DNA of 64,000 bases from Cellulomonas avistercoris (GTDB taxonomy: Bacteria; Actinomycetota; Actinomycetes; Actinomycetales; Cellulomonadaceae): positions 1 to 64,000 of the forward strand of contig NZ_JACSQV010000008.1 of NCBI RefSeq assembly GCF_014836445.1, read 5' to 3'. How positions within the stretch are numbered: the stretch's first letter is position 1; the number at the start of each line of letters is the position of its first letter. Of this stretch, positions 30,055 through 42,891 are shown piece after piece. The notes under the pieces were generated by a model. That model saw only the letters and a list, made by a program, of their open reading frames with translations, was not told where the DNA came from and ran no database searches. Both the position numbers and the translations under genes were made by a program.

Positions 30055-31083
30055 GTGAACCGCCGTCTGCCACTCGTCATCCTGTCCGTCGCAGCCCTCG
30101 TCGTGCTGCCCTCCACCGCCGCGACCGCCACCGGGGGTGGTCACCACGGGTCGGGCAAGCCCGGCTACTCGGCCGGCTACAAGCCCAAGCCCGGCAAGCC
30201 CACGCCCGCGCCCCAGCCCACGGCCGCCCCCGGCGCGCTGTGCGGCGGCAAGCGCACCGGCGACGTGATCCCCTGGAACGCCTACACGTGCGACCAGGCC
30301 ACGGGGTACTTCCTCTACAAGAAGCTCGACGTCCGCAAGGCCGCCGGGTACTGGAACAGCGGGCCGCAGCACCGCGTCGCGCTGCACGCCGTGTGGGCGT
30401 GGCCGACCGCGAACGGGTCCGGCCGCACCGAGGCGTCCCGGAACCTGCCGCGCGACGCGCAGACCATCCCGCTCGAGCTCGACGCCACCGACGCCGCGGC
30501 GGTCTGCGCCGACCGCGAGGCCTACGGCCTGCAGGTGGACCTCGTGGGCGACGGCGAGGCCGGCCGTGGGCTCGACGTCGCGTCGCTGGTCCCGACCGTC
30601 ATCACGCCCCCGCACGACGGCGGGTTCCCGGTGCCGAACACCCTGGCGTTCTACGGGCACTACGACGTGGACGACCTCGTCGACCTCGACGTGCTGTGCG
30701 CCCCGGTCGTCGTCCCGACGCCCTCGGCGTCCCCGACGCCGCCGCCCTCCCCGACACCCAGCCCGACGCCGACGCCGACCGCCGACGTGGACGACGAGCC
30801 CACCGTCGCGCCGACCCCGACGCCCGCACCGTCGCCGAGCGAGACCAGCGAGGTCCTGCCGGCACCGGCCGAGACCCCGACACCGACCGCCACCGCGACG
30901 GCCACGCCCACCCCGTCCCCGACGCCGACCGAGCGCGCCGAGGTGCTCGCCGCGGTCGACGACGACGACACGCTCGCCGCGACGGGCACGCAGGCCGCCT
31001 TCGGCCTGCTCGCCGCGATCGGTGCGATCGCCGGTGGTACGGCCCTCGTGCTCGCCCGGCGCCGTCACCGCACGGAGAGCTGA
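30055..31083 (+). CDS. Sortase-anchored surface protein with LAATG motif
   Basis: 342 residues. N-terminal signal peptide (ending near ATA), a His/Gly/Lys/Pro linker, then one domain with Cys in ALCGGKR, YTCDQATG, AVCADRE and VLCAPVV, suggesting two disulfides. A long Pro/Thr/Ser spacer leads to LAATG at residues 307-311, a hydrophobic helix and RRRHR. LAxTG is the signal used by class E sortases of actinobacteria, which link proteins to the cell wall. Start GTG 30055 has GAGGAG 8 nt upstream. The function of the exposed domain is unknown. Confidence 0.82.
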   Translation: MNRRLPLVILSVAALVVLPSTAATATGGGHHGSGKPGYSAGYKPKPGKPTPAPQPTAAPGALCGGKRTGDVIPWNAYTCDQATGYFLYKKLDVRKAAGYWNSGPQHRVALHAVWAWPTANGSGRTEASRNLPRDAQTIPLELDATDAAAVCADREAYGLQVDLVGDGEAGRGLDVASLVPTVITPPHDGGFPVPNTLAFYGHYDVDDLVDLDVLCAPVVVPTPSASPTPPPSPTPSPTPTPTADVDDEPTVAPTPTPAPSPSETSEVLPAPAETPTPTATATATPTPSPTPTERAEVLAAVDDDDTLAATGTQAAFGLLAAIGAIAGGTALVLARRRHRTES

Positions 31084-31211: not shown

Positions 31212-31217
31212 TACGCT
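31212..31217 (+). promoter_or_regulatory. -10 box of array gene 1 (leaderless)
   Basis: TACGCT ends 6 nt before the GTG at 31224. The four other array genes have the same arrangement (32770, 34403, 35940 and 37505), so each has its own promoter. No matching -35 consensus is obvious. Confidence 0.6.
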
Positions 31218-31223
31218 GCAGCG

Positions 31224-32741
31224 GTGGCACGCGGCGACGCGAGGAGAGACGTCGAGCTCGTCGAGGACGACGAGGGCGTCACCGGCGGCGCGCCCCCCGG
31301 CGGCGGGAGTCAGCCGGGCACCGCAGCGGGCGACGGCGAACCGGCCGGTGCGCCGCACCGCACCCGCCGGCGCCTCCTGGTCGCGGGCGCGGTGCTGCTC
31401 GGGCTTGCCGTGGTCTTCGGCGTCGTCGCCCAGGGCGTCGTGACGTCCCGCGAGCGCGCACGGATGGCGGCGGTCGCGGGGCTGCCGGGGGTCCTGAACC
31501 CCGTCGACGGGCCGGTGAGCGCGCTGCGGTCGGACGCCGACGCGGACGCGGAGCTGCTGCGCGCGAGCGCCCGCACGCCCGACGGCCTGTTCGTCGCCTC
31601 ACGGGAGACCGTGGACGGTACGGCGTCGGTCGTCGCGTTCGACCCGGCCGACGGTGCGGTCGCCTGGGAGGTCGAGCTGATCGGCCCCGGGAGCGCGCTC
31701 GACGTCCTGCCGGACGGGGAGGTGGTCCGCAGCCACGGCTCGTGCGAGACGTACGGGACCGAGCGGGAGCTGCTCGTGTGCCTGGCCGACAACGGGGTCA
31801 ACGTCGTCGGGCGCGGCACCCTCGCGCAGATCCTGCCGACCGAGACGCGGCTGGTCGTCCTCGACGCGCGCGACGGCGCGGTCGTGAACGACCTGTCGTC
31901 GGCGGCGGGCGAGCCGCTCGCGTCGCGGTCGATCGCCGTGCTGGCGGATCTCGTCGTCCTGGCCGGCACCGGGGAGTCCACCGCCCGGGTGCGGGCCCTC
32001 GCCGCGGACGGCACGGTCGCGTGGCAGACCTCGTTCCCGACCACGACGACGACGGCCTACGGGGCGCGTGCGGAGCTGCGGGCGACGTCGGACGCCGTCG
32101 CGCTCCTGACGCCCGACGCCTTGCGCCTGCTCGACGAGGCGGGCGAGACACGGCAGCAGGTCGAGCTGACGTCGGACACGCGCATGGAGGTGGCGCCCGG
32201 CTACGCCGTGGCCGACACCCCGCAGGGCACGGTCGTGGTGCGGCCGGACGGGATCCAGCGGGCACCGGGGACGTGGGTCAGGCTCACGGTCGACGACGGC
32301 AGCGCGCCCGGGCTCGTCCTGACGTCCGACGAGCGCGGCCTGCACGCGTGGGACGTCGACGGCCGGGCGCTGTGGACGGCGGTCCCGACGCCCACCGCGT
32401 ACTCGGCGGTGCTCCTCGACGGCCGGGTCCTCATCGGCAACGGCACCGCCCTCGACGCGCTGGACGCCGGCACGGGGGAGCGGATGTGGAGCGCGCCGGG
32501 CCTGCTGCCCCAGTCGGGGACGGCGACGGACGGCCGGTACGTCCTCGTCCTCGCGCCGGGACCCGGCGGCAGCACGCCGGACGTGCTCGTGGCGCTGGAC
32601 GCCGCGGACGGGCAGCGCGCCTGGGCGGTGGACCTGACCGAGCCGGTCTCGTCGATCCTCCCCGTCCACGGCGTGCTCGTCGCCTACTCGTTCGACGGGT
32701 CGCAGGACGGTGGCGGGCTCGTCACCTATGTGCTCGGCTGA
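31224..32741 (+). CDS. Membrane-anchored PQQ-like beta-propeller protein, array paralog 1
   Basis: 505 residues. A short cytoplasmic segment contains DVELVEDDEG, a motif shared with the sister genes; one transmembrane helix follows (residues about 49-71, RLLVAGAVLLGLAVVFGVVAQ); the rest is an extracellular beta-propeller with repeats such as VAFDPADGAVAWEVEL, VVLDARDGAVVNDL and LDALDAGTGERMWSA (PQQ-like D-x-x-x-G-x-x-x-W blades). Shared landmarks are SHGSCETYG and VDDGSAPGLVL. No active site is visible, so a binding or scaffold role is more likely than an enzyme. Family members occur only as this tandem set in the window. Confidence 0.8.
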   Translation: MARGDARRDVELVEDDEGVTGGAPPGGGSQPGTAAGDGEPAGAPHRTRRRLLVAGAVLLGLAVVFGVVAQGVVTSRERARMAAVAGLPGVLNPVDGPVSALRSDADADAELLRASARTPDGLFVASRETVDGTASVVAFDPADGAVAWEVELIGPGSALDVLPDGEVVRSHGSCETYGTERELLVCLADNGVNVVGRGTLAQILPTETRLVVLDARDGAVVNDLSSAAGEPLASRSIAVLADLVVLAGTGESTARVRALAADGTVAWQTSFPTTTTTAYGARAELRATSDAVALLTPDALRLLDEAGETRQQVELTSDTRMEVAPGYAVADTPQGTVVVRPDGIQRAPGTWVRLTVDDGSAPGLVLTSDERGLHAWDVDGRALWTAVPTPTAYSAVLLDGRVLIGNGTALDALDAGTGERMWSAPGLLPQSGTATDGRYVLVLAPGPGGSTPDVLVALDAADGQRAWAVDLTEPVSSILPVHGVLVAYSFDGSQDGGGLVTYVLG

Positions 32742-32781
32742 GCGCGGCCCGGGCGCGCCACCACCGCGCTAGCCTGCAGCG

Positions 32782-34356
32782 GTGGCACGTCGCGGCGCCA
32801 GGATGCACGTCGAGCTCGTCGAGGACGACGGGACGCAGGACGGCCCCCTGCCCGCGGTCGCACCGGGCAGCACCCCCGACGGGCAGGGCGTCGTCGACGT
32901 CCACGCACGCCACCTCGCGCCCCGCGCCCGTCGCCGGGTGCTCGCGGCCACGGCCACGGTCGTCGTGGCGCTCGTCGCTGTCGGCGTCGTCGGGCAGGTC
33001 CGCGAGGCGGCCCGCGACCGCGCCCGGCTCGCGGTCGTGGCGACGCTGCCGCAGGCGCTCGCGCCGCTCGACGGACCGCCCGAGGTCCTGTGGACGGCCA
33101 CGAACGACGACGTGCTGTGGGCGACGGCCCGCACGCCCGACGGGCTGCTCGTGGGCACGCGGGCCGGTGACGACGGCGGGGACACCGCGCAGGCGACGGA
33201 CCCGGTGACGGGCGAGGTCGTCTGGGAGCGGGAGCTGCTCCCCGCGTCGGCCGCCCCGCCGGACGCGCGCGGCGACACCCGCACGCGGGGCGGCTCCTGC
33301 CTGACGCACGGCACCGACGGCGAGGGCCTGGTCTGCTTCGCCCACAACGCACGCTCCGTCTTCGGGGCGGCGGTGCAGCACCGCGCGCCCACGGTGACCC
33401 GCCTGCTGCTGCTGGACCCGGACGACGGGGCGGTCGTCGCGGACCTGTCCGACGCCGTGGACGACACGGGGATCTTCCCGACGTTCGTCGTCCTCGACGA
33501 CCTCGCGGTGGTGGGCAGCGTCGTCGACGACGACGCGCACGTCGTGGCCGTCGCACCGGACGGCACCGTGGCGTGGCGGGCCACGTTCCCGGCGGTGACC
33601 TCCCCCGCGTCAGCGCTCCCGCGGTACGGGCCACGCGTCCAGGTGATGCTGCTGGGTGACGACCTGCTGGTGTCGACCGCCGGTGAGCTGCGCATCCTCG
33701 ACGCCACGGGGACGGTCCTGCGCAGCTTCCCGGTGGGTCCCGACGAGCTCCTCAGCGGCACGTCCGGCGCATCGGCGCTCACGAGCCCGGGTTCCGAGCA
33801 GCTCGTCTTCACGCGCATCGGCACCCGGACCGTCGCCACGGGCGCGAGGACCCGGCTCGTGCGCGCGGACCGCGTCGGCGGGCTCGCCGGGCGCTGGGTG
33901 CCCACGGGCGTCGACGACGGCAGCGCCGACGGCCTCCTGCTCACCGTGGACGGGGCCGGGCTGCACGGCTGGGACAGCGACGGCACCTGGCGGTGGACCG
34001 CGCCCCGGGTGCCGACCTCGGTCGGGTCCGCGCACGTGCTCGCGGAGCGCGTCCACGTCGTCGTCGGCAGCAACCTGGTGACGTACGACGCGCGCACGGG
34101 CGCCGAGCTGTGGCGCAGCGGCGGCCTGACCGGCCAGGAGCCGCCCCTGACGGACGGCCGCCGCCTCCTGGTACGGGCCGCCGGCGCCGACGGCCGCGGG
34201 ACGGACCTGGTCGCGCTGGACGCAGCCGACGGCTCCGTGGCGTGGCGGACGGCGTTCCCGCCCCGCGTCGAGCTGCTGCACGCGACGTTCGGTGCCCTCG
34301 TCGGGGTCACCCCGCTCGAGGACGGGGCGAGGGCGAGCGTCACCGTCCTGGGCTGA
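32782..34356 (+). CDS. Membrane-anchored PQQ-like beta-propeller protein, array paralog 2
   Basis: 524 residues, same layout as paralog 1: N-terminal HVELVEDDG, helix near residues 52-72 (RVLAATATVVVALVAVGVVGQV), then propeller blades (ATDPVTGEVVWERELL, LLLDPDDGAVVADL, VTYDARTGAELWRSGG, VALDAADGSVAWRTAF). Shared landmarks are GSCLTHGTDGEGLVC and VDDGSADGLLL. The GTG follows TAGCCT by 6 nt; the gene starts 40 bp after paralog 1 with its own -10 box. Confidence 0.8.
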   Translation: MARRGARMHVELVEDDGTQDGPLPAVAPGSTPDGQGVVDVHARHLAPRARRRVLAATATVVVALVAVGVVGQVREAARDRARLAVVATLPQALAPLDGPPEVLWTATNDDVLWATARTPDGLLVGTRAGDDGGDTAQATDPVTGEVVWERELLPASAAPPDARGDTRTRGGSCLTHGTDGEGLVCFAHNARSVFGAAVQHRAPTVTRLLLLDPDDGAVVADLSDAVDDTGIFPTFVVLDDLAVVGSVVDDDAHVVAVAPDGTVAWRATFPAVTSPASALPRYGPRVQVMLLGDDLLVSTAGELRILDATGTVLRSFPVGPDELLSGTSGASALTSPGSEQLVFTRIGTRTVATGARTRLVRADRVGGLAGRWVPTGVDDGSADGLLLTVDGAGLHGWDSDGTWRWTAPRVPTSVGSAHVLAERVHVVVGSNLVTYDARTGAELWRSGGLTGQEPPLTDGRRLLVRAAGADGRGTDLVALDAADGSVAWRTAFPPRVELLHATFGALVGVTPLEDGARASVTVLG

Positions 34357-34414
34357 CGCGGACCCGGCCGAGGCCCCTGCGGCGCAGCACGCTCGGGGCG
34401 GTTAGCGTGCGGCC

Positions 34415-35878
34415 ATGGCGCGCGCACGCAGGGTCGAGGTGGTGCTGGAGGGCGGTGACGCCGACACCGCGGCGCCGCCCTCCGATGCCCGGTCGACCGC
34501 CCGGCGGCGCCGGTGGTGGTGGCTCGCCGTCCCGCTCGCCGCGGTCCTCGCGCTCGTCGCCGGCCAGGTCGTCACCGACCGCCGCGAGCGCGCCGCGCTG
34601 ACGGCCCTGGCCGAGGTCCGGGGCGTCCTGGCGCCGCTCGACGACGAGGTCGAGGTCGCGTGGGAGGTGGACGAGGGCACGCGCCTCGAAGGCGCCGCCC
34701 GTGTCGGCTCGGTGCTGGCGGCCACGCGCGCGACGGCCGACCACACCGTCGTGCTCGAGGGCCGCGACGTGGCCACGGGCGCCCGGCTCTGGGCGCGCGA
34801 CGTGGTCGGTCCCCGCCCGCGCTGGACGCCCGACGCCGAGGCCGACCCGGTGCCGTGCACGGCGCTGCCCGACCGCCCCGGAGAGGTGGTCTGCCTGGTC
34901 CCGGACGGCGGCGGTGACGTCGTCGACGGGGCGTGGGCGACGATCGCCCCGACGACGACGCGGCTGCTCGTGCTCGACGCCGCCGACGGCACCGTGCAGG
35001 TCGAGCGTGAGGTCCCCGCGACGGTGCAGTGGCTGACCCCGTCCGGCGACGACGTGCTGCTCGTCGGCACGGTCGACGGCACGACGCACGTCCGGTCGCA
35101 GCACCTGCTGGACGGCACCGAGCGCTGGCACGTCACGGTCGGCGCCGGCGCGGACGACCTGCCGTTCACGCCGGGCGCCGCGACGAGCACGCTGCTCGAC
35201 GCACGGACGCTCGCCGTGGACCACGGCAACGCGGTCACGCTCGTGTCCACGGACGGCAAGGTCCTGCGCACGGTGGGGACGCAGCCGGGGACCGGCCTCA
35301 CGGGCCGGCGCACCACGACGAGGGTCGAGCTCTCCACGGCCCTCGCGGCCGCCGTGATCGGCAGCGAGTCCTCGTCCGCCGTGGTGTCGGCGACGGCCGA
35401 GGTCCCCCTCGACGGGTCCGTCCTGCCCGTCGTCGTGGACGACGGCAGCGTCCCGGGGCTCGTCCTGACGCGCACGCCGCGGCTGCAGGCGTGGGACGCG
35501 AGCGCCGGCTCGCCACGCTGGGACGCCGACGTCGTCGACGCCCAGGACGCCACGATCCTGCAGGGCCGGGTGCACGTCGGGACGTCCGCCTGGCTCGTGA
35601 CGTACGACGGTGCCACCGGTGACGAGCTGTGGCGGTGGTCCCGCCCGACCGGTACCGGGCCGCTCCTGACGGACGGCCGCCACCTGTACGTGCTGGGCAG
35701 CCGCGACGGCCGGCACAGCGGGCCCTACGACGTGGTGGCGCTGCACGTCGCCGACGGCACCGAGGCGTGGCGCACGCCGCTGGCCGCCCGCACGTGGCTG
35801 CTCACGCTGGACGGTCTGCTCCTGGCGCAGACGTTCGACGAGACCAGCCAGGTGGAGACGTACCGCGTCCTGCGCTGA
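34415..35878 (+). CDS. Membrane-anchored PQQ-like beta-propeller protein, array paralog 3
   Basis: 487 residues. The N-terminal motif is altered (VEVVLEGGD in place of VELVEDD). The transmembrane helix follows RRRRWWW near residues 34-54. Blades include LEGRDVATGARLWARDV, LVLDAADGTVQVER, VTYDGATGDELWRWSR and HVADGTEAWRTPL; the shared motif reads VDDGSVPGLVLTR. TAGCGT lies 6 nt before the ATG. A single pair of Cys (VPCTAL, VVCLVP) could form a disulfide. Confidence 0.8.
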   Translation: MARARRVEVVLEGGDADTAAPPSDARSTARRRRWWWLAVPLAAVLALVAGQVVTDRRERAALTALAEVRGVLAPLDDEVEVAWEVDEGTRLEGAARVGSVLAATRATADHTVVLEGRDVATGARLWARDVVGPRPRWTPDAEADPVPCTALPDRPGEVVCLVPDGGGDVVDGAWATIAPTTTRLLVLDAADGTVQVEREVPATVQWLTPSGDDVLLVGTVDGTTHVRSQHLLDGTERWHVTVGAGADDLPFTPGAATSTLLDARTLAVDHGNAVTLVSTDGKVLRTVGTQPGTGLTGRRTTTRVELSTALAAAVIGSESSSAVVSATAEVPLDGSVLPVVVDDGSVPGLVLTRTPRLQAWDASAGSPRWDADVVDAQDATILQGRVHVGTSAWLVTYDGATGDELWRWSRPTGTGPLLTDGRHLYVLGSRDGRHSGPYDVVALHVADGTEAWRTPLAARTWLLTLDGLLLAQTFDETSQVETYRVLR

Positions 35879-35951
35879 ACCGTGCCCCTCGACGGCAGCC
35901 GTCCGGCCGGAACCCGCCCTGGACCGCCGTGCGCGGCGCTAGCCTGCGACG

Positions 35952-37427
35952 ATGGCACGCCGCAGCCCCCTGCACGACGTCGAGCTCGTCGACGACGACG
36001 ACGCGCCCACCGTGCCCACCGACGCGGACGCGGACCCGGCCGCGCGGCGTCGCAGCCGCCGGGCGCTGGTCGTCGGGGTCGCGCTCGTGACGGTTCTGGT
36101 CGCCGGTGCGGTCGTGGGCCAGTCCGTGGTGGACCGCCGCGAGCGCGCGGGGGTCGCGGCGGTCGCCGGGCAGATGGGCGCGGTGGACCTGCTGGACGGC
36201 CCGCCCGCCGCCCGGTGGGAGACGACCGAGGACGCGTTCACGACGATGACCACGCGCACCTCCGACGGGGTCCTGGTCGGTGTGCAGCACGCGCTCAGCG
36301 GCCCGGTGGAGGTGGCGGCGGTCGATGCCGCGACGGGCGCGCAGACGTGGCGCGTCGAGCTCATCGACAGCTCGACCCGCGCCGCGCAGGACACCCCGGC
36401 GACCTACGCGTGGTCGGGGTCGTGCAGCGAGGTCCCCGGCCGGGACCACCGGGTCGCGTGCCTGGTGCACGACGGGACGCAGTCCACCGACGAGAACGGT
36501 GAGCCCGTCGGGGCGCCGCCGTCGGTGGTGCGCGTCGTCACCCTCGACACGCGCGACGGCACGGTGGTCCAGGACCTCTCCGACGCGCTGGACGTCACGG
36601 GGGCGGTGTCGTCGTTCGTCTTCACGGGGGAGGTCCTCGCCGTCGCGACCCGGGGCGGGACGGGGAGCGAGCGGGTGACGCATGTGCGAGCGGTCACGTG
36701 GGACGGCGCGTCGGCCTGGGACCTGACGATCCCCGAACCCGGCGACGACGAGCCGTCCCAGATCTACCTCGCCGAGCTCGGCGACCTCGTGGGCGTCGCC
36801 ACCCCGACCGAGCTCCGGCTCGTCGACGCCCGCGGGCGCACGGTGCGGACCCTGCCGCTGGACGGCGGGTACGTCGCGGGCTGGGGCGGCGATGTGCTCT
36901 ACGTGATGACGTCCGACGTCGACGGCACCACGACCGTCGTCCGTCCCGACGGTGACGTCGACGTGACGGGTTACGTCGTGCCCGCCCTCGTCGACGACGG
37001 CAGCGTCCCGGGCCTCACCGTCACGTCCGACGACGGTCTGCTCACCGCGTGGGACGGCGAGGGGGCACGGCTGTGGTCGTCCGAGCTCGCGCCGCCGGCG
37101 TCCGTCATCGTGCTCGGTGGGCGCGTCCTCCTCGACGCGGGCCGGGGGCTGGCGGCGCTCGACGCGCGTACCGGGGACGAGCTGTGGACGAACGACGTGT
37201 CCGGGGCCGACCCCGTGACCGACGGTCGGCACGTGTACGCGCTGGTCTCCGCACCGAGCCGGGGGCAGCGCAGCGAGATGGTGGCCCTGGACCCGGCGGA
37301 CGGCTCGGAGGTGTGGCGCGCGCCGCTCCCCGACGGCACCGACGAGCTGATCGCGTTCACGGGCCTGCTGGTCGCGTTCGGCCGCGACGACGCGGGCGAC
37401 CTCACGCACCTCACGGTCATGCGCTGA
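35952..37427 (+). CDS. Membrane-anchored PQQ-like beta-propeller protein, array paralog 4
   Basis: 491 residues. N-terminal DVELVDDDD, then a helix near residues 37-57 (LVVGVALVTVLVAGAVVGQSV). Propeller blades include VDAATGAQTWRVEL, VTLDTRDGTVVQDL, AALDARTGDELWTND and LDPADGSEVWRAPL. It carries the GSC...RVACLV and VDDGSVPGLTV landmarks. TAGCCT lies 6 nt before the ATG. N-terminal similarity is closest to paralogs 1 and 2 by eye. Confidence 0.8.
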   Translation: MARRSPLHDVELVDDDDAPTVPTDADADPAARRRSRRALVVGVALVTVLVAGAVVGQSVVDRRERAGVAAVAGQMGAVDLLDGPPAARWETTEDAFTTMTTRTSDGVLVGVQHALSGPVEVAAVDAATGAQTWRVELIDSSTRAAQDTPATYAWSGSCSEVPGRDHRVACLVHDGTQSTDENGEPVGAPPSVVRVVTLDTRDGTVVQDLSDALDVTGAVSSFVFTGEVLAVATRGGTGSERVTHVRAVTWDGASAWDLTIPEPGDDEPSQIYLAELGDLVGVATPTELRLVDARGRTVRTLPLDGGYVAGWGGDVLYVMTSDVDGTTTVVRPDGDVDVTGYVVPALVDDGSVPGLTVTSDDGLLTAWDGEGARLWSSELAPPASVIVLGGRVLLDAGRGLAALDARTGDELWTNDVSGADPVTDGRHVYALVSAPSRGQRSEMVALDPADGSEVWRAPLPDGTDELIAFTGLLVAFGRDDAGDLTHLTVMR

Positions 37428-37517
37428 CGGGTCCCGGCCGGGGCGTGTGCCCCGATGCGTCGTCGGCTCTGGTCCGGGCTCTGTTCCGCGTCGTGCCCGC
37501 TCGGTAGCGTGCGGGAG

Positions 37518-38954
37518 GTGGGTGACCCGGTGCTGGTCGAGCTCGACGACGACCCCGGAGCGCCCGCGCCGGACGTTCCCGCCGGCCCGGCGCGGCGCCG
37601 GTGGGGCGCCCTGGTGCTGCTCGCGGTCGTGGCGGCGCTCGTCCTGGCGCAGCTCGTCGCGGACGCGCGCGAGGGGGCGCGCCTCGCGGCGCTCACCGAG
37701 GTCACGGGCGTGCTCGACCCCGTCCCGGACCCGCCGCACGTCGCGTGGCGGCTGGACGACGACGCCACACGCGACGTGCAGGTCGTCGGGTCACGGCTCC
37801 TCGAGGGCCGGATCGCACCCGACGGTGCGATGTCCGTGGCCGCGCGCGACCTCGCGACGGGAGCCGTGCAGTGGACGGCTCCGCTGCTCGCGGCGCCCGA
37901 CGCCCCCCTGCCGGACGGGACCGTCCGGTACGGGCTGCAGTGCACCGCCGGGCCCGCGCTGCCCGGCCGCGTCGTGTGCCTCGTGCACGACGCGACGGTC
38001 GCCGGCACCCCCGAGGGGCCCTCGATGACGTCGACCGGCGCAGCGGCCGTCGCGGCCCGCGTGGAGGTCGTCGACATCGCGTCGGGCGAGGTGGTCGGCG
38101 ACTACCCGGCGGCCGACGGCGGGACCGTCGCGGCGGCCGTCGGCGTGACCGACGGGGCCCTCGTGCTCGCGGCACCGCTCGACGACGGCACGTCGGTGTG
38201 GGCGCTGGACCCCGCGACGGGCGCCCCGCGGTGGCGCGTGCACGCCGAGACCGGGTTCGGGGGCGGCTGGCTGCGGTGGGGCGCGGAGGTGCGGGTCGTC
38301 CCCGTGGGCGACACCGCGGTCGGCGTGCTGGGCGCGGGCGTCGTCCTGCTGGACGGCACCGACGGCTCGACCCTCGCGACCGCCGGCACGCTGGCCACCG
38401 TCACGGGCGCACGCCAGGACGGCACCGCGCTGGTGGTCGGCAGCGAGGGCTACACGCGCCTGGTCGGCCCGGCGGGCGAGGTGCGGCTCGAGGGCGCGCC
38501 GGTGCCCGTGGACGTCGACGACGGCAGCGTCCCGGGGCTCGCGCTCACCATGTCGGGCGGCCTGCGGGCGTGGGACGCGAGGACCGGGGAGCCGCGGTGG
38601 CAGGCGGAGGTCGCGGGTCAGACGGCGCTGGTGGTCGGCGGCTGCCTGCACGTGTACGACGCGCTCCACGTCACGACGCTCGACGCGCGCACGGGCGAGG
38701 TGCTGTGGACGACGACGGCACCCGAGCTGCTCGGCGGGGACGCCGCGGTCACCGGCCTGGCGACCGACGGCTCCCACCTGCTCGTCGCCGGGACCACGCC
38801 GACCACCGGTGCACGGCTCGTCGCGGTCGACCCCGCCGACGCGTCCGTGCAGTGGCGCACGGACCGCACCGGGCTGGGCGACGTCATGCGCGTGGACGCG
38901 GCCGACGGTGTCCTGCTGGGCACGGACCCGCAGGACACCGTCGTGCTGCGCTGA
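37518..38954 (+). CDS. Membrane-anchored PQQ-like beta-propeller protein, array paralog 5
   Basis: 478 residues. A short N terminus with VLVELDDDP stands for the shared acidic motif; the helix is near residues 31-50 (WGALVLLAVVAALVLAQLVA). Blades include AARDLATGAVQWTAPL, WALDPATGAPRWRVH, TTLDARTGEVLWTTT and VAVDPADASVQWRTD; VDDGSVPGLALT is conserved. GTG 37518 follows TAGCGT by 7 nt, in place of the 6 nt of the others. The last gene of the array; it converges on the VWA gene with a 4-bp gap. Confidence 0.8.
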   Translation: MGDPVLVELDDDPGAPAPDVPAGPARRRWGALVLLAVVAALVLAQLVADAREGARLAALTEVTGVLDPVPDPPHVAWRLDDDATRDVQVVGSRLLEGRIAPDGAMSVAARDLATGAVQWTAPLLAAPDAPLPDGTVRYGLQCTAGPALPGRVVCLVHDATVAGTPEGPSMTSTGAAAVAARVEVVDIASGEVVGDYPAADGGTVAAAVGVTDGALVLAAPLDDGTSVWALDPATGAPRWRVHAETGFGGGWLRWGAEVRVVPVGDTAVGVLGAGVVLLDGTDGSTLATAGTLATVTGARQDGTALVVGSEGYTRLVGPAGEVRLEGAPVPVDVDDGSVPGLALTMSGGLRAWDARTGEPRWQAEVAGQTALVVGGCLHVYDALHVTTLDARTGEVLWTTTAPELLGGDAAVTGLATDGSHLLVAGTTPTTGARLVAVDPADASVQWRTDRTGLGDVMRVDAADGVLLGTDPQDTVVLR

Positions 38955-38958
38955 GGCG

Positions 38959-41900
38959 TCAGGCGAAGATGCCGTACGTCCACGCGCTGCCGCGCGTCGA
39001 GTGGACGATCTCGGCCGTCGGCGACGTGGCGTCGTACTCGTCGTAGAAGATCATGACGCACTCGAAGTGGTAGCTCGGGGGCACGCCGTCCACGACGACC
39101 TGCCAGGGCTCCCCGCGCCGCAGCGGGCTCTCGGCGACCACGGTGAACGTCTGCCCCGGCGTTCCCTGGTCACCCGTGTTCGTGCCGTCCACGAACGCCA
39201 GCGCGGTGCACGACGCCTGCACGGACCGGGCGTCCAGGCGCCACGAGGGGACGCTCAGCGCGAGGCTCTGGTAGCGCGTGTCGCCGGTCCAGTCGACCTC
39301 GCCCCAGGTGTCCGAGAGGTCGGCCGCGGTGAGCACCGTGGCAGCGAGCACCGTGCCGGCCGCCGACCTCGCCACGACCTCGCACGTGTAGGTGCGCTCG
39401 GCGTACGGGACGTGGACGCCCTCCGGCGAGCCCGACCACCAGGCCGTGCCCCTGCCGTCCTCCCACACCTCGGTCCACGAGGACGGGGACGCCTGCGGCA
39501 GCGGGACGTCGACGTCGCACGAGATCGACACGCCGTCCGGTGCGGTGCCCGCCGGCGCTTCGTCGATCGTCACCTCCAGGTGCTCGTAGCGCAGGTCGCG
39601 GCTCTCCTCGTACTCCCGCACGAAGGCCGTCGCGCGCAGCGCGTCCTCGCGGCCGAGCACCTGCCGCACGAAGGGACGCACGTACCGCCGCGTCTGGTAC
39701 TGCGAGTCCTCCGGCAGCGACAGCAGCAGGCCGCCGCCCTCCTGGGCGAGCGTCGCGAGCGCGGTCAGGTCGCTCGTCGGCTCGGGAGCGATGACGTTGA
39801 CCGTGATCCCGGCACCCACGGCACGCGTCAGGTCCTCGGGGACCGACGACCCGTCGCCGTCGCCCACGGCCAGCACCGCGCGGACGCGGTCCGGATCGCC
39901 CTTCTCGAGAAGCATGTCCACGGCGGCCGCGACGCCGCCCGCCAGGTCGGGGCGGTCGGAGCCCGTCCAGTCGTAGAGGTCGTACGCGCGGTCGAGGCCG
40001 TCCATCACCTCCGCGAGGTCGGCGGTCAGCGGCAGCACGGTGGTCGCCGATCCGGAGTACGCCACGATGCCGACGCGGTCGCCCGCCCGCAGCGCCTCGA
40101 CGGCGTCCCGCAGGAGCCAGTGGTGGTGGCTGGTCCACGCGCCACCCTCCATGCTGAGGTCGACCACGAGGACGACGTCGGCCGCGTCACGCGGTCCGCC
40201 GGGGTCCGTCGGGTCGGTCGGGTCCGTCGGATCGGTCGGGTCGGTCGGGTCCGTCGGGTCGGTCGGGTCGGTCGGGTCCGTCGGGTCCGTCGTCCCCGAC
40301 CACGGCCGCTCGTCGACGTGCAGGACGACGCGCTGCTCCGCGATCTCGTGGTCCCACGACGCGATGTGCCGGCCCAGCACCGCCAGCGACACCCCGATGC
40401 TGCTCACGGACACGAGGTCGAGCTGGCGCTTGATCGTCTGCTTCGCGACGGAGACCTCGGCGCTCAGCGCAGGGCCGACCCGGACCGCGACGTACGGCCC
40501 GGCCTGGTCGTAGATCCTCGCGATGAACGCCAGGCGGGCCGACAGCCCGACCTCGACGGCCAGCAGGATGTCCGGCTCCCAGATGGGGGTGGCGGACTTC
40601 TCGGCGACCGGCGCCCAGCGCCCGTCCTCGAAGCGGACGCCGTAGGTGAGCGCGATGTCGATCCCGAGCTTGGCCGACACCGCGGCGCTCGCCTCGACGC
40701 TGGCGACCAGCGTGGTCCCGAGGTAGTACGTCATGACCACGGGGACCGTCGCGATCATGAACGTGTTGGTGAAGAGGAACCGCTCCGGCAGCGCCTTCTC
40801 GAGCTTCACCTTCGCGGCCGCCGTGGCCTTGAGCTCGGCCGCGAACGGGAATCTCACGCCATAGCTGAGCTCGAACCTGTCGAGCCGCGCCGACACCCCG
40901 GACCAGGAGATGTCGAGGTCGATGTCGAGGACGACCGTCACGGTCACCGTGTACGACAGCTCGTACCCGATCGAGACGGGGGACGTGGCGAGCTGTCCCT
41001 CGAGCCGCAGGGACGGGAGCACCGTCGCGCCGCGGGCGGCCCGCCCGGCGACGCGTGCCGACACGACCTCACCCGTCGCGCCGTCGACCACCTGGTGCGA
41101 CCCGTCGAGCTCGAGCTCGTGGACATCGAGGTGCACCTGCAGGAGCGCGTCGGTGAGGGCGGCGGCCGACGTCTCGACGACGGTGGTGGCCCCCACGCGC
41201 CGCACCGACTCGACGCGGCGCAGCAGGCCCTCCGGTGCCATCGGGGCGACGTCGCTGACCAGCACGTCACCCGCGGCCAGCGGGATCGCGCCGTCGATGA
41301 CGAGGTGGTCGTCGTGGACCTCGAGCAGGCGCTCACCCTCCTCGGGCTCCAGCACCCGGGCGTCGGGGGCGACGACGACGGCGTCCTGCGGTGCCGCCTC
41401 GACGGTGATCTGACGCGTCAGGGTCGTCGAGCGGCCCGCCCAGTCGCGTGCGACCACGCTCAGGGTGTGTGCGCCCGTGGGCGTCGGGATCGCCAGGCTC
41501 CACGTCAGCGGACCCGACGCCCCCGGGTGCAGCCGGGCGCGGCCCAGCGTGACGCCGTCCCCGCTCACGACGACCTCGCGCACGCCGGCACCCGCGTCGT
41601 GGACCGTCCCCTCGACGACCAGCTCGGGCGTCGTCGCCTGGGACACCACCGCGCCCTGCCGGGGCGACGTCACGGTCAGCGCCGGCGCGGTGCGGTCCGC
41701 GGAGGCCGCGACGGGTGCGGTCAGGTGACCGATCAGCCGCGCACCGAGGACCTCCCCGCCCACGGGCGGGACGACGACGGCGGTGCCGGACGCGCTGACG
41801 GGCACGGCGAGCGTGACGGTCGTGGTCGTGCGGGCGGGCACCGGCACGTCGGCGTCCAGCTGCAGGACCGCACGTGCCAGCGAGCTGCCGGTCGCGAGCA

Positions 41901-42891
41901 CGCCGGGCAGGCTGCCGCTGCGGACCTCGACCTGGAGCAGCACCTGCGTCGTGGTCGACGGCAGGTCGGCACCCGCCAGGCGGACGGTCCGCGCGCCGGC
42001 GAGCCCGCGCTGCAGGGTGAGCGTGCGTGCGCTCGTGACGGCGACCCCGCCGTCGACCGGGTCGGGCGACGTCCCGCCGCCGTCGGCCACCCACCCGACG
42101 ACCGCGACGCGCAGCCCCGACGTCGTGGCGTCCCGCAGCACGCTCACGGTCCCGTCGACGTCCACGGGCGCCAGGACGAGCGCGGTGCGCCAGGAGGTCG
42201 TCACGGGGACCCCGGCCGCTGCCACGCCGTCCGCCGCGGGGAAGGAGATCGCACCGCCGTCCCCGGCGGACTGGACCGAGAGCCACACGGCGCGTACTCC
42301 CTCGGTGGGAAGTCCTGCGCGCCCCGCGACGGGGACACGGACGGGAGCGCCGGGTGCGGGCAGGTCCCCGCCCTCGCCCGTCGCCTGGTCGAGCACGGTC
42401 GTCGACGCGACGACGGTGGTCCCGCCGGCCCCGACGGCCTCGTCCTCGCTGCTCGGGACGACCCCGACCACCGAGACGGTGACCCGGGCGTCGGTGGTCG
42501 AGCTGACGGGCACGACACCCTGGGAGTCCGACGTGACCAGCGTCGTCGCGGACGAGGTGCCGGCCGGGTAGCTGACCGCGGGCGCCGCGTCCGTGGTGCT
42601 GCCGAACGTCAGGGTGCCCGCGGTGCGCGCCGACGTGACGGCCACCTGGACGACCAGACCCGTGCGGGCGGCGCGCTCACCCGCCGCGCGCAGCCGCAGG
42701 TCGACGACCTGGCCGGCCCCGAGGGTGACGCCCGCGGTCGCGCCGACGACCGACGGCCGCGTCTGCGCCCACGAACCGACGGGCCGCACGGGCCCGCTGG
42801 TCTGCGCGTGCGCGACGGAGGGCTGCAGGACCAGCGCCACCACGACCGACATGACGAGCACGAGTCGTGACGGGAAGAACGACGTGCGCAC
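38959..42891 (-). CDS. Large secreted protein with Ig-like and von Willebrand A domains
   Basis: 1,310 residues. A signal peptide ends at SVAHAQT. Residues about 30-420 are repetitive beta modules. An Ig-like module at about 430-530 (APALTVTSPRQGAVVSQATTPELVVEGTVHDAG) is followed by a large beta-rich region without recognised domain. A (Thr-Asp-Pro)x10 hinge then leads to a VWA domain at about 905-1080 (DVVLVVDLSMEGG, imperfect MIDAS, and ADVAAAVDMLL-like helix). Two Cys-containing beta modules (VSISCDVDV, RTYTCEVVA) end the protein. No wall anchor is seen. VWA domains bind ligands or partners through a metal. AGGAGG is 6 nt before GTG 42891, a classical leader unlike the neighbouring array genes. 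Confidence 0.8.
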   Translation of the reverse strand: MRTSFFPSRLVLVMSVVVALVLQPSVAHAQTSGPVRPVGSWAQTRPSVVGATAGVTLGAGQVVDLRLRAAGERAARTGLVVQVAVTSARTAGTLTFGSTTDAAPAVSYPAGTSSATTLVTSDSQGVVPVSSTTDARVTVSVVGVVPSSEDEAVGAGGTTVVASTTVLDQATGEGGDLPAPGAPVRVPVAGRAGLPTEGVRAVWLSVQSAGDGGAISFPAADGVAAAGVPVTTSWRTALVLAPVDVDGTVSVLRDATTSGLRVAVVGWVADGGGTSPDPVDGGVAVTSARTLTLQRGLAGARTVRLAGADLPSTTTQVLLQVEVRSGSLPGVLATGSSLARAVLQLDADVPVPARTTTTVTLAVPVSASGTAVVVPPVGGEVLGARLIGHLTAPVAASADRTAPALTVTSPRQGAVVSQATTPELVVEGTVHDAGAGVREVVVSGDGVTLGRARLHPGASGPLTWSLAIPTPTGAHTLSVVARDWAGRSTTLTRQITVEAAPQDAVVVAPDARVLEPEEGERLLEVHDDHLVIDGAIPLAAGDVLVSDVAPMAPEGLLRRVESVRRVGATTVVETSAAALTDALLQVHLDVHELELDGSHQVVDGATGEVVSARVAGRAARGATVLPSLRLEGQLATSPVSIGYELSYTVTVTVVLDIDLDISWSGVSARLDRFELSYGVRFPFAAELKATAAAKVKLEKALPERFLFTNTFMIATVPVVMTYYLGTTLVASVEASAAVSAKLGIDIALTYGVRFEDGRWAPVAEKSATPIWEPDILLAVEVGLSARLAFIARIYDQAGPYVAVRVGPALSAEVSVAKQTIKRQLDLVSVSSIGVSLAVLGRHIASWDHEIAEQRVVLHVDERPWSGTTDPTDPTDPTDPTDPTDPTDPTDPTDPTDPGGPRDAADVVLVVDLSMEGGAWTSHHHWLLRDAVEALRAGDRVGIVAYSGSATTVLPLTADLAEVMDGLDRAYDLYDWTGSDRPDLAGGVAAAVDMLLEKGDPDRVRAVLAVGDGDGSSVPEDLTRAVGAGITVNVIAPEPTSDLTALATLAQEGGGLLLSLPEDSQYQTRRYVRPFVRQVLGREDALRATAFVREYEESRDLRYEHLEVTIDEAPAGTAPDGVSISCDVDVPLPQASPSSWTEVWEDGRGTAWWSGSPEGVHVPYAERTYTCEVVARSAAGTVLAATVLTAADLSDTWGEVDWTGDTRYQSLALSVPSWRLDARSVQASCTALAFVDGTNTGDQGTPGQTFTVVAESPLRRGEPWQVVVDGVPPSYHFECVMIFYDEYDATSPTAEIVHSTRGSAWTYGIFA
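40201..40290 (-). repeat. Ten 9-bp coding repeats (Thr-Asp-Pro linker)
   Basis: Ten in-frame copies of a 9-bp unit, varying only at a few C/G positions, encode TDP tripeptides between the beta-rich region and the VWA domain. Such tracts change length by slippage; changes in whole units keep the frame. Confidence 0.9.

Follow-up and report, generated by a model that had tools for sequence, protein, structure and literature searches.

Cellulomonas avistercoris carries a tandem array of five paralogous genes whose products are predicted to be membrane-anchored beta-propellers. The array occupies positions 31224-38954 on the plus strand of the window, by which we mean the whole stretch of 64,000 nucleotides analysed here (positions 1 to 64,000 of contig NZ_JACSQV010000008.1), and it lies on contig 29 of a 4.17-Mb genome; a sixth, distant copy of the family is found on contig 26 of the same genome. 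The five consecutive genes are copy 1 (P0001, 31224..32741, GTG start, 505 aa), copy 2 (P0002, 32782..34356, GTG start, 524 aa), copy 3 (P0003, 34415..35878, ATG start, 487 aa), copy 4 (P0004, 35952..37427, ATG start, 491 aa) and copy 5 (P0005, 37518..38954, GTG start, 478 aa), separated by intergenic gaps of 40, 58, 73 and 90 nt, as a first-pass annotation made from the sequence alone had described them (478-524 residues, all on one strand). Copies 2, 3, 4 and 5 share 42, 31, 37 and 33% identity with copy 1. The reading that we favour, at a probability of about 45%, is that these proteins are cell-surface binding platforms, acting as receptor or scaffold, in which the outer side would diversify between copies and species, and the tail motif, transmembrane (TM) helix, stalk and membrane-near side would dock every copy to a common partner. 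Each protein would pass the membrane once with its N terminus inside, where a disordered tail of ∼30-45 residues would bear a hydrophobic-acidic motif (core V-E-L/V, then acidic). After some basic residues there would follow a TM helix that bears a conserved Gln towards its outer end, a conserved stalk (DARERA..LA..PGV) and, outside the membrane, probably a nine-bladed propeller of the PQQ/BamB type with an invariant Cys pair. The stalk would enter the propeller where the A-B and C-D turns lie, a side that also bears D-D-G-S-x-P, and the D-A and B-C loops would face away from the cell.

The tail motif reads VELVEDD in copy 1 (31251..31271) and copy 2 (32809..32829) and VELVDDD in copy 4 (35979..35999), all on the plus strand. 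The earlier description, "VELVEDD or close", is thus exact or nearly so for three copies, and copies 3 and 5 need its looser half, with the variants VEVVLEG (34433..34453, plus strand) and VELDDD within VLVELDDD (37536..37553, plus strand). As a common feature the motif holds for the family as a whole: V[ED][LVMI] occurs within the first 26 residues in 96 of 112 homologues whose start codon follows a TANNNT hexamer (see below), where shuffled peptides predict 12.6, and the remaining 16 tails mostly hold near variants (VVLVEDE, IELDDE, FLEDD), with a few lacking any. In a family alignment of 49 rows, V10 is kept in 48, E11 in 42, L12 in 41 and D/E14 in 45; here the motif partly guided the choice of starts, whereas the count of 112 tails chose them independently. 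Between the window and G009, the closest relative in the set, the nonsynonymous substitution rate (dN) is 0.022 over the 40 codons of the motif versus 0.224 over the 130 codons of the remaining tail, and the synonymous rate (dS) of the motif is likewise low at 0.038, from one synonymous change. Conservation of the motif within a tail that varies elsewhere points indirectly to a common cytoplasmic partner. A short hydrophobic strand followed by acidic residues is reminiscent of SUMO-interacting motifs. The strict pattern occurs at seven places in the genome, four of which are N termini of the family (copies 1, 2, 4 and the sixth copy); the others lie inside what we take to be a universal stress protein, at the N terminus of a presumed isopentenyl-diphosphate isomerase and, for the seventh, in no called frame. 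With four of seven matches in the family itself, use of the motif by unrelated proteins of the genome was rejected, with the proviso that the strict pattern overlooks variants like those of copies 3 and 5, so looser use elsewhere is possible. A role of the region at the DNA level was considered as well. GTC encodes the Val of the motif in 81 of 91 cases; where Val precedes a GA-codon in other parts of these genes, the figure is 583 of 783. This is a weak hint only, and residues and codons vary at the next positions.

All copies are predicted to have the same layout of short tail, one TM helix, stalk and PQQ-type propeller. AlphaFold models of copies 1 and 3 (29 alignment rows; mean pLDDT 86.0 and 86.4, pTM 0.81-0.82) both run from a low-confidence tail through one long helix into the propeller. 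This helix, comprising TM segment and stalk, covers model residues 46-84 in copy 1 (31359..31475, plus strand), including the conserved Q70 and RERA, and residues 31-66 in copy 3 (34505..34612, plus strand). Among the 49 rows, Q70 is kept in 42, R76 in 41, A79 in 39, P88 in 40 and G89 in 41. In the 112 homologues the hydrophobic stretch is flanked by a mean of 4.2 Lys or Arg residues before it and 2.8 after it, with more before in 87 of 112, and this excess favours a tail that lies inside. None of the 112 contains a simple lipobox pattern, and in four a Cys precedes the end of the TM segment. The single membrane helix and the membrane anchoring proposed earlier are therefore upheld at the level of prediction.

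The propeller itself is recognised by Pfam PQQ_2 (PF13360) in all five copies. With hmmscan, copies 1, 2, 4 and 5 reach 43-61 bits (cut-off 27.6); copy 3 gives no hmmscan match at E<=1, and reaches 31.3 bits, above the cut-off, in a six-frame search. Both models contain a propeller, in agreement with the PQQ-like fold that had been read from the sequence. Two cysteines, C174 and C186, are invariant in the 49 rows and lie on neighbouring strands of blade 2 in the model, where they are likely to form a disulphide. Another landmark, VDDGS-x-PGL, had been reported for all five copies; it is exact in four, namely copy 1 (VDDGSAPGL, 32289..32315, lying in the model between strands 1 and 2 of blade 6), copy 3 (VDDGSVPGL, 35435..35461), copy 4 (VDDGSVPGL, 36990..37016) and copy 5 (VDDGSVPGL, 38514..38540), and copy 2 reads VDDGSADGL (33910..33936), all on the plus strand. 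The exact form is present in 18 of 49 rows, and it is the core D-D-G-S-x-P that is family-wide (D 47, D 49, G 44, S 45 and P 43 of 49); in the copy 1 model it sits on the stalk-entry side of the propeller.

We read nine units of four strands each in both models, with the N-terminal strand completing the ninth. The Gly of the C-D turn is present in 43-49 of 49 rows in seven of eight turns, the blade 5 turn being degenerate (14/49), and the Trp of the N-terminal strand in 40 of 49. The leading fold matches are the designed propellers Cake10 and Cake9, with Z 21.2 (5.0 Å, 333 residues) and Z 21.1 (4.9 Å, 332 residues) for copy 1, and Z 23.3 and 22.6 for copy 3 (4.0 Å over 334 and 335 residues). 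The eukaryotic IFT-A propeller 8bbf (Z 17.4 and 19.3 for copies 1 and 3) comes next after the Cake designs or level with Escherichia coli BamB (about Z 15-16 and 18-19), and human eIF2A gives Z 16.1 and 18.2, so that fold rank alone does not settle the blade number. Foldseek lists the eight-bladed Cake8 for copy 1, and Cake8 is outside the best 50 VIA rows, an absence that is not read as exclusion, and a viral fold library returned assorted propeller proteins. Cake9 is described as a nine-bladed design that folds with eight repeats too (PMC8458387), the eIF2A propeller is called "nine-bladed" in the abstract (PMC4125824), and nine blades are mentioned for forms of DPPIV-type propellers and for cyanobacterial chitinase sequences (PMC9218822). 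The last source describes one case in which prediction programs counted one set of blades as eight or as nine, and for this reason a nine-bladed propeller is called likely here, and not more. Among nine-bladed propellers, eIF2A, Cake9 and Cake10 would match the family in its predicted blade number; they are a eukaryotic translation factor and designs, with no membrane anchor.

Since PF13360 is named after BamB and BamB structures are among the leading matches, the array could be a BamB orthologue, or a PQQ-dependent enzyme, that has been expanded in tandem. The family does share the blade type, the turn Gly and the docking Trp with PQQ_2/BamB-type propellers, which supply its leading sequence and fold matches. 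It differs from them in having a TM anchor and a conserved cytoplasmic tail in place of a lipid anchor, nine predicted blades in place of eight, and the invariant Cys pair. The NCBIfam models for BamB stay far below their cut-offs (TIGR03300 at most 25.9 bits vs 285.2; NF008351 at most 18.1 vs 423), and the Omp85/BamA model (PF01103) has no match in the C. avistercoris genome (G000), although it matches 7 of 14 control genomes. With these scores, the missing Omp85 and no lipobox, BamB identity was rejected, and the view that these genes are neither fragments nor BamB is borne out. Matches to quinoprotein dehydrogenases cover the chain partially and lie far below the family cut-offs, so an enzyme of this kind is unlikely; taken together, orthologue or enzyme is hardly credible.

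The start codons are another shared feature. Each of the five lies 6-7 nt past a -10-like hexamer on the plus strand: TACGCT (31212..31217) 6 nt 5' of copy 1, TAGCCT (32770..32775) 6 nt 5' of copy 2, TAGCGT (34403..34408) 6 nt 5' of copy 3, TAGCCT (35940..35945) 6 nt 5' of copy 4 and TAGCGT (37505..37510) 7 nt 5' of copy 5. What the first-pass annotation had seen for five genes extends to the family, since an in-frame start 5-8 nt past TANNNT is found in 112 of 142 distinct homologues versus none of 346 shifted frames, leaving 30 of 142 without such a start. The 142 are the distinct members in the collected loci with the TM region in frame, and the test was made without the tail motif; they come from family-bearing genomes, many of one genus, and are not independent, and the 346 shifted frames include repeated copies of loci. 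In another count, TANNNT is present at 77 of 95 homologue starts and, among the other genes of these loci, at 42 of 418; here the motif partly guided the start choice, and for eight orthologues of gene 5 the start used in scoring lay 9 nt too far upstream. Scans for sigma-70 promoters and terminators gave no match, and in 111 aligned regions upstream of TANNNT every column stays at or below 0.3 bits. Leaderless genes with a TANNNT -10 box are known in actinobacteria (PMC3160421, PMC3898074). The mechanism is therefore ordinary, and the notable part is its consistency within one family. Judged by the TANNNT spacing, each gene probably has its own leaderless-type promoter, as had been suggested.

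In a tree of 61 homologues, copies 1-5 fall into separate groups, each with orthologues from other species: copy 1 (6 rows, support 100/100), copy 2 (5 rows, 100/100), copy 3 (8 rows, 100/100), copy 4 with relatives (9 rows, 100/99) and copy 5 (8 rows, 100/100). Synteny was traced over ten related loci, giving arrays, losses and duplications. All five genes are present in G009 and G059, four in G079 and three in G032; G017 has seven genes, with copies 3 and 4 doubled, and G068 five genes, with the copy-5 gene absent. In G077 and G072 a copy-5 orthologue is the only propeller gene, G078 has copy 5 and a fragment, and G035 has one divergent member. Orthologous groups shared across species, together with these gains and losses, show that the array is old, maintained and in flux, and the first two of these had been claimed before; the five groups have a bootstrap of 100 each. 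Separate tandem groups of four are found in G024, G040 and G041. Members of the family occur in 12 of the 25 genera of the bacterial family, and the array is one place among several at which the gene has multiplied. At a threshold of E<=1e-10, at which counts are lower bounds and the best candidates per genome were scored, the family matches at least 70 of 81 genomes of the genus (65 of 72 of good quality), with 1 to 12 matches per genome, and 110 of 200 genomes of the bacterial family, own genus included. At the order level 6 of 149 genomes match, of which five belong to the same bacterial family; the match of the sixth, G232, is confined to profile positions 336-469, which are generic blades. 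By these counts the family appears lineage-specific, hardly reaching beyond one bacterial family.

Some signs of gene decay are seen within the family. A 122-aa propeller fragment (L056:7830-8198) lies beside an intact copy-5 orthologue, and one family match in G058 has an internal TAG.

It is worth noting that the propeller genes evolve faster than most of their neighbours. In eight locus pairs, all 21 propeller comparisons exceed the dN/dS median of the other genes of their pair, the propellers ranging over 0.21-1.01 and the medians over 0.056-0.193; the pairs L060/L061 and L061/L062 have one locus in common, and L099/L100 and L111/L112 are highly diverged (dN 0.60 and 0.47), with paralogy possible. 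These values bear on the proposal that the copies are redundant tandem duplicates under weak constraint, born and lost while keeping one ancestral role, with their variation being drift. The dN/dS range would suit it, as would the losses, extra copies and the L056 fragment among species and the internal stop in one G058 match. It sits poorly with the persistence of five orthologous groups between species at 46-70% identity, with the conservation of tail motif, promoter element, Cys pair and stalk, and with the finding that among the matches listed for genus and family genomes none has an internal stop. We consider redundancy distinctly unlikely.

The changes are also unevenly placed on the propeller. 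In the five pairs between window and G009, dN is 0.17 for loops on the D-A/B-C side, 0.05 and 0.08 on the A-B/C-D side and 0.10 in strands, and family entropy follows the same order (2.85-2.99 for outer-side loops, 1.83 and 1.89 for the inner side), a comparison made on this family alone. Because the chain enters the propeller at the C-D side, geometry suggests that the variable side should face outward. Since evolution is fast and variability is greatest on the loops away from the stalk, the pattern points indirectly to different ligands for different copies. In a fuller form of this idea the copies would make up a diversifying receptor repertoire, in which natural nine-bladed propellers on a single TM anchor bind different targets with their outer sides and one cytoplasmic adaptor is reached through the strand-like V-E-L-acidic motif, and in which the separate leaderless promoter of each copy would allow single genes to be gained or lost without breaking an operon; taken as a whole this is unlikely. 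Of the surface receptors or scaffolds proposed at first pass, the membrane-anchored paralogous propellers stand, and a receptor role, like the partner, the ligands and the direction of a signal, is what we infer.

Several observations weigh against binding platforms with a common partner. The models behind the proposal cover two of the five copies (1 and 3). An excess of Lys and Arg before the TM segment is missing in 25 of 112 homologues. No partner gene is constantly linked to the family across the loci looked at. The family seems dispensable, since 7 of 72 good-quality genomes of the genus give no match to it at E<=1e-10. As for the rates, 12 of 85 other genes reach the lowest propeller dN/dS of their pair, a 76-codon neighbour below the length limit has a dN/dS of 0.95, and values below or about 1 fit relaxed constraint equally well. 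Finally, the inner-side turns include the structural PQQ blade turn, so their conservation need not mean a docking face.

The main rival is that the propellers are scaffolds of envelope assembly, holding together enzymes that build the wall or surface proteins, with the copies serving different enzymes or substrates, perhaps sortase-anchored proteins. BamB plays a like part in Gram-negatives, and the nearest working precedent is Rv3035/MMAR_1667, an actinobacterial extracytoplasmic propeller which, according to PMC12802301, is predicted to be eight-bladed, is lipoprotein-like and assists a wall glycosyltransferase in a complex with FecB and the arabinosyltransferase AftB. The fold matches of copy 1 include the Rv3035 structure of M. 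thermoresistibile (9p3g; Z 14.9, rmsd 5.2, 283 aligned). A possible client is encoded upstream of the array (30055..31083, plus strand), a secreted-type protein of 342 aa with a C-terminal LAATG sorting signal and no Pfam match at E<=0.01. Such a protein precedes the propellers in the window and in 9 of 10 related loci, and all nine homologues end in LAATG. No other neighbour seen is as stable, and it may be a client of the propellers, although synteny alone would explain its position too; its homologue was found at array loci only, not at the remaining family loci covered (L049, L060-L065). Rv3035 is absent from the profile matches at E<=0.01 and, with eight blades and a lipoprotein-like anchor as that source has it, differs from the TM-anchored and predicted nine-bladed family here; fast evolution and a copy number of 1 to 12 per genome would also be unusual for a housekeeping scaffold. 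By analogy, then, a role in assembly is conceivable, and we think it rather unlikely.

Returning to binding platforms with a common partner, neighbouring genes do not name that partner. Companions found at some loci are what we take to be otsAB-like genes with an ABC ATPase, a sigma factor, a kinase/PP2C/MoxR cluster and an alpha/beta-hydrolase; each occurs at some loci only, and a partner by gene linkage was rejected. As an example, in L063, L065, L099 and L100 members lie between genes presumed to encode trehalose-phosphate synthase/phosphatase and an ABC ATPase, which is a second conserved location. Four-gene arrays at L060:11807-14848, L061:4246-7284 and L062:4684-7707 begin 16-34 nt, depending on the start chosen, after a sigma-factor-like gene, presumably of the ECF type. 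In the C. avistercoris genome the sixth copy closes a cluster on contig 26 (L089:10576-16181, L049:8-10239) in which Pfam recognises an alpha/beta-hydrolase, PP2C, a protein kinase and an RDD-FHA protein, and which also holds what look to us like fibronectin-type, MoxR, DUF58 and transglutaminase proteins; this is the only place near the family where a kinase gene was noticed. At five loci of other genera the propeller stands directly behind the hydrolase gene and the cluster is absent. In these (L111-L114 and L118, three genera) the member follows era-like and alpha/beta-hydrolase genes, and a leuA-like gene comes after it where the stretch reaches, the names era and leuA being our assumption; the sixth copy has the same neighbourhood. 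Downstream of the array, 4 nt past the end of copy 5, a convergent gene on the minus strand (38959-42861) encodes a secreted-type protein of 1300 aa with a VWA domain and a long (DPT)n repeat; in G009 it is absent between copy 5 and the AI-2E transporter gene. A defence or mobile origin was also tried, without a match in PADLOC for the five copies at E<=0.1, in a plasmid search with copy 5 or in a phage search with copy 1.

Among known systems, LpqB of MtrAB-LpqB is similar in being, according to PMC10714768, a lipoprotein outside the membrane that is joined to signalling. It is encoded with a histidine kinase and a response regulator, and no such pair was noticed beside the family described here. 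LpqB, too, holds a propeller. In the literature searched, whose coverage leaves out most subscription papers, no title or abstract beginning names the array or the family.

The genes thus define a well-supported family, built from a common fold, of fast-evolving and putatively surface-exposed propellers that vary in copy number within one actinobacterial family and have one conserved inner motif. Confirmation of nine blades would bring a large membrane-anchored set from bacteria into a class of rare blade number, which has other natural cases in eIF2A and in the DPPIV-type and chitinase sequences mentioned in PMC9218822. Since the inner motif is shared, a single pull-down with the tail could reveal a pathway common to all copies.

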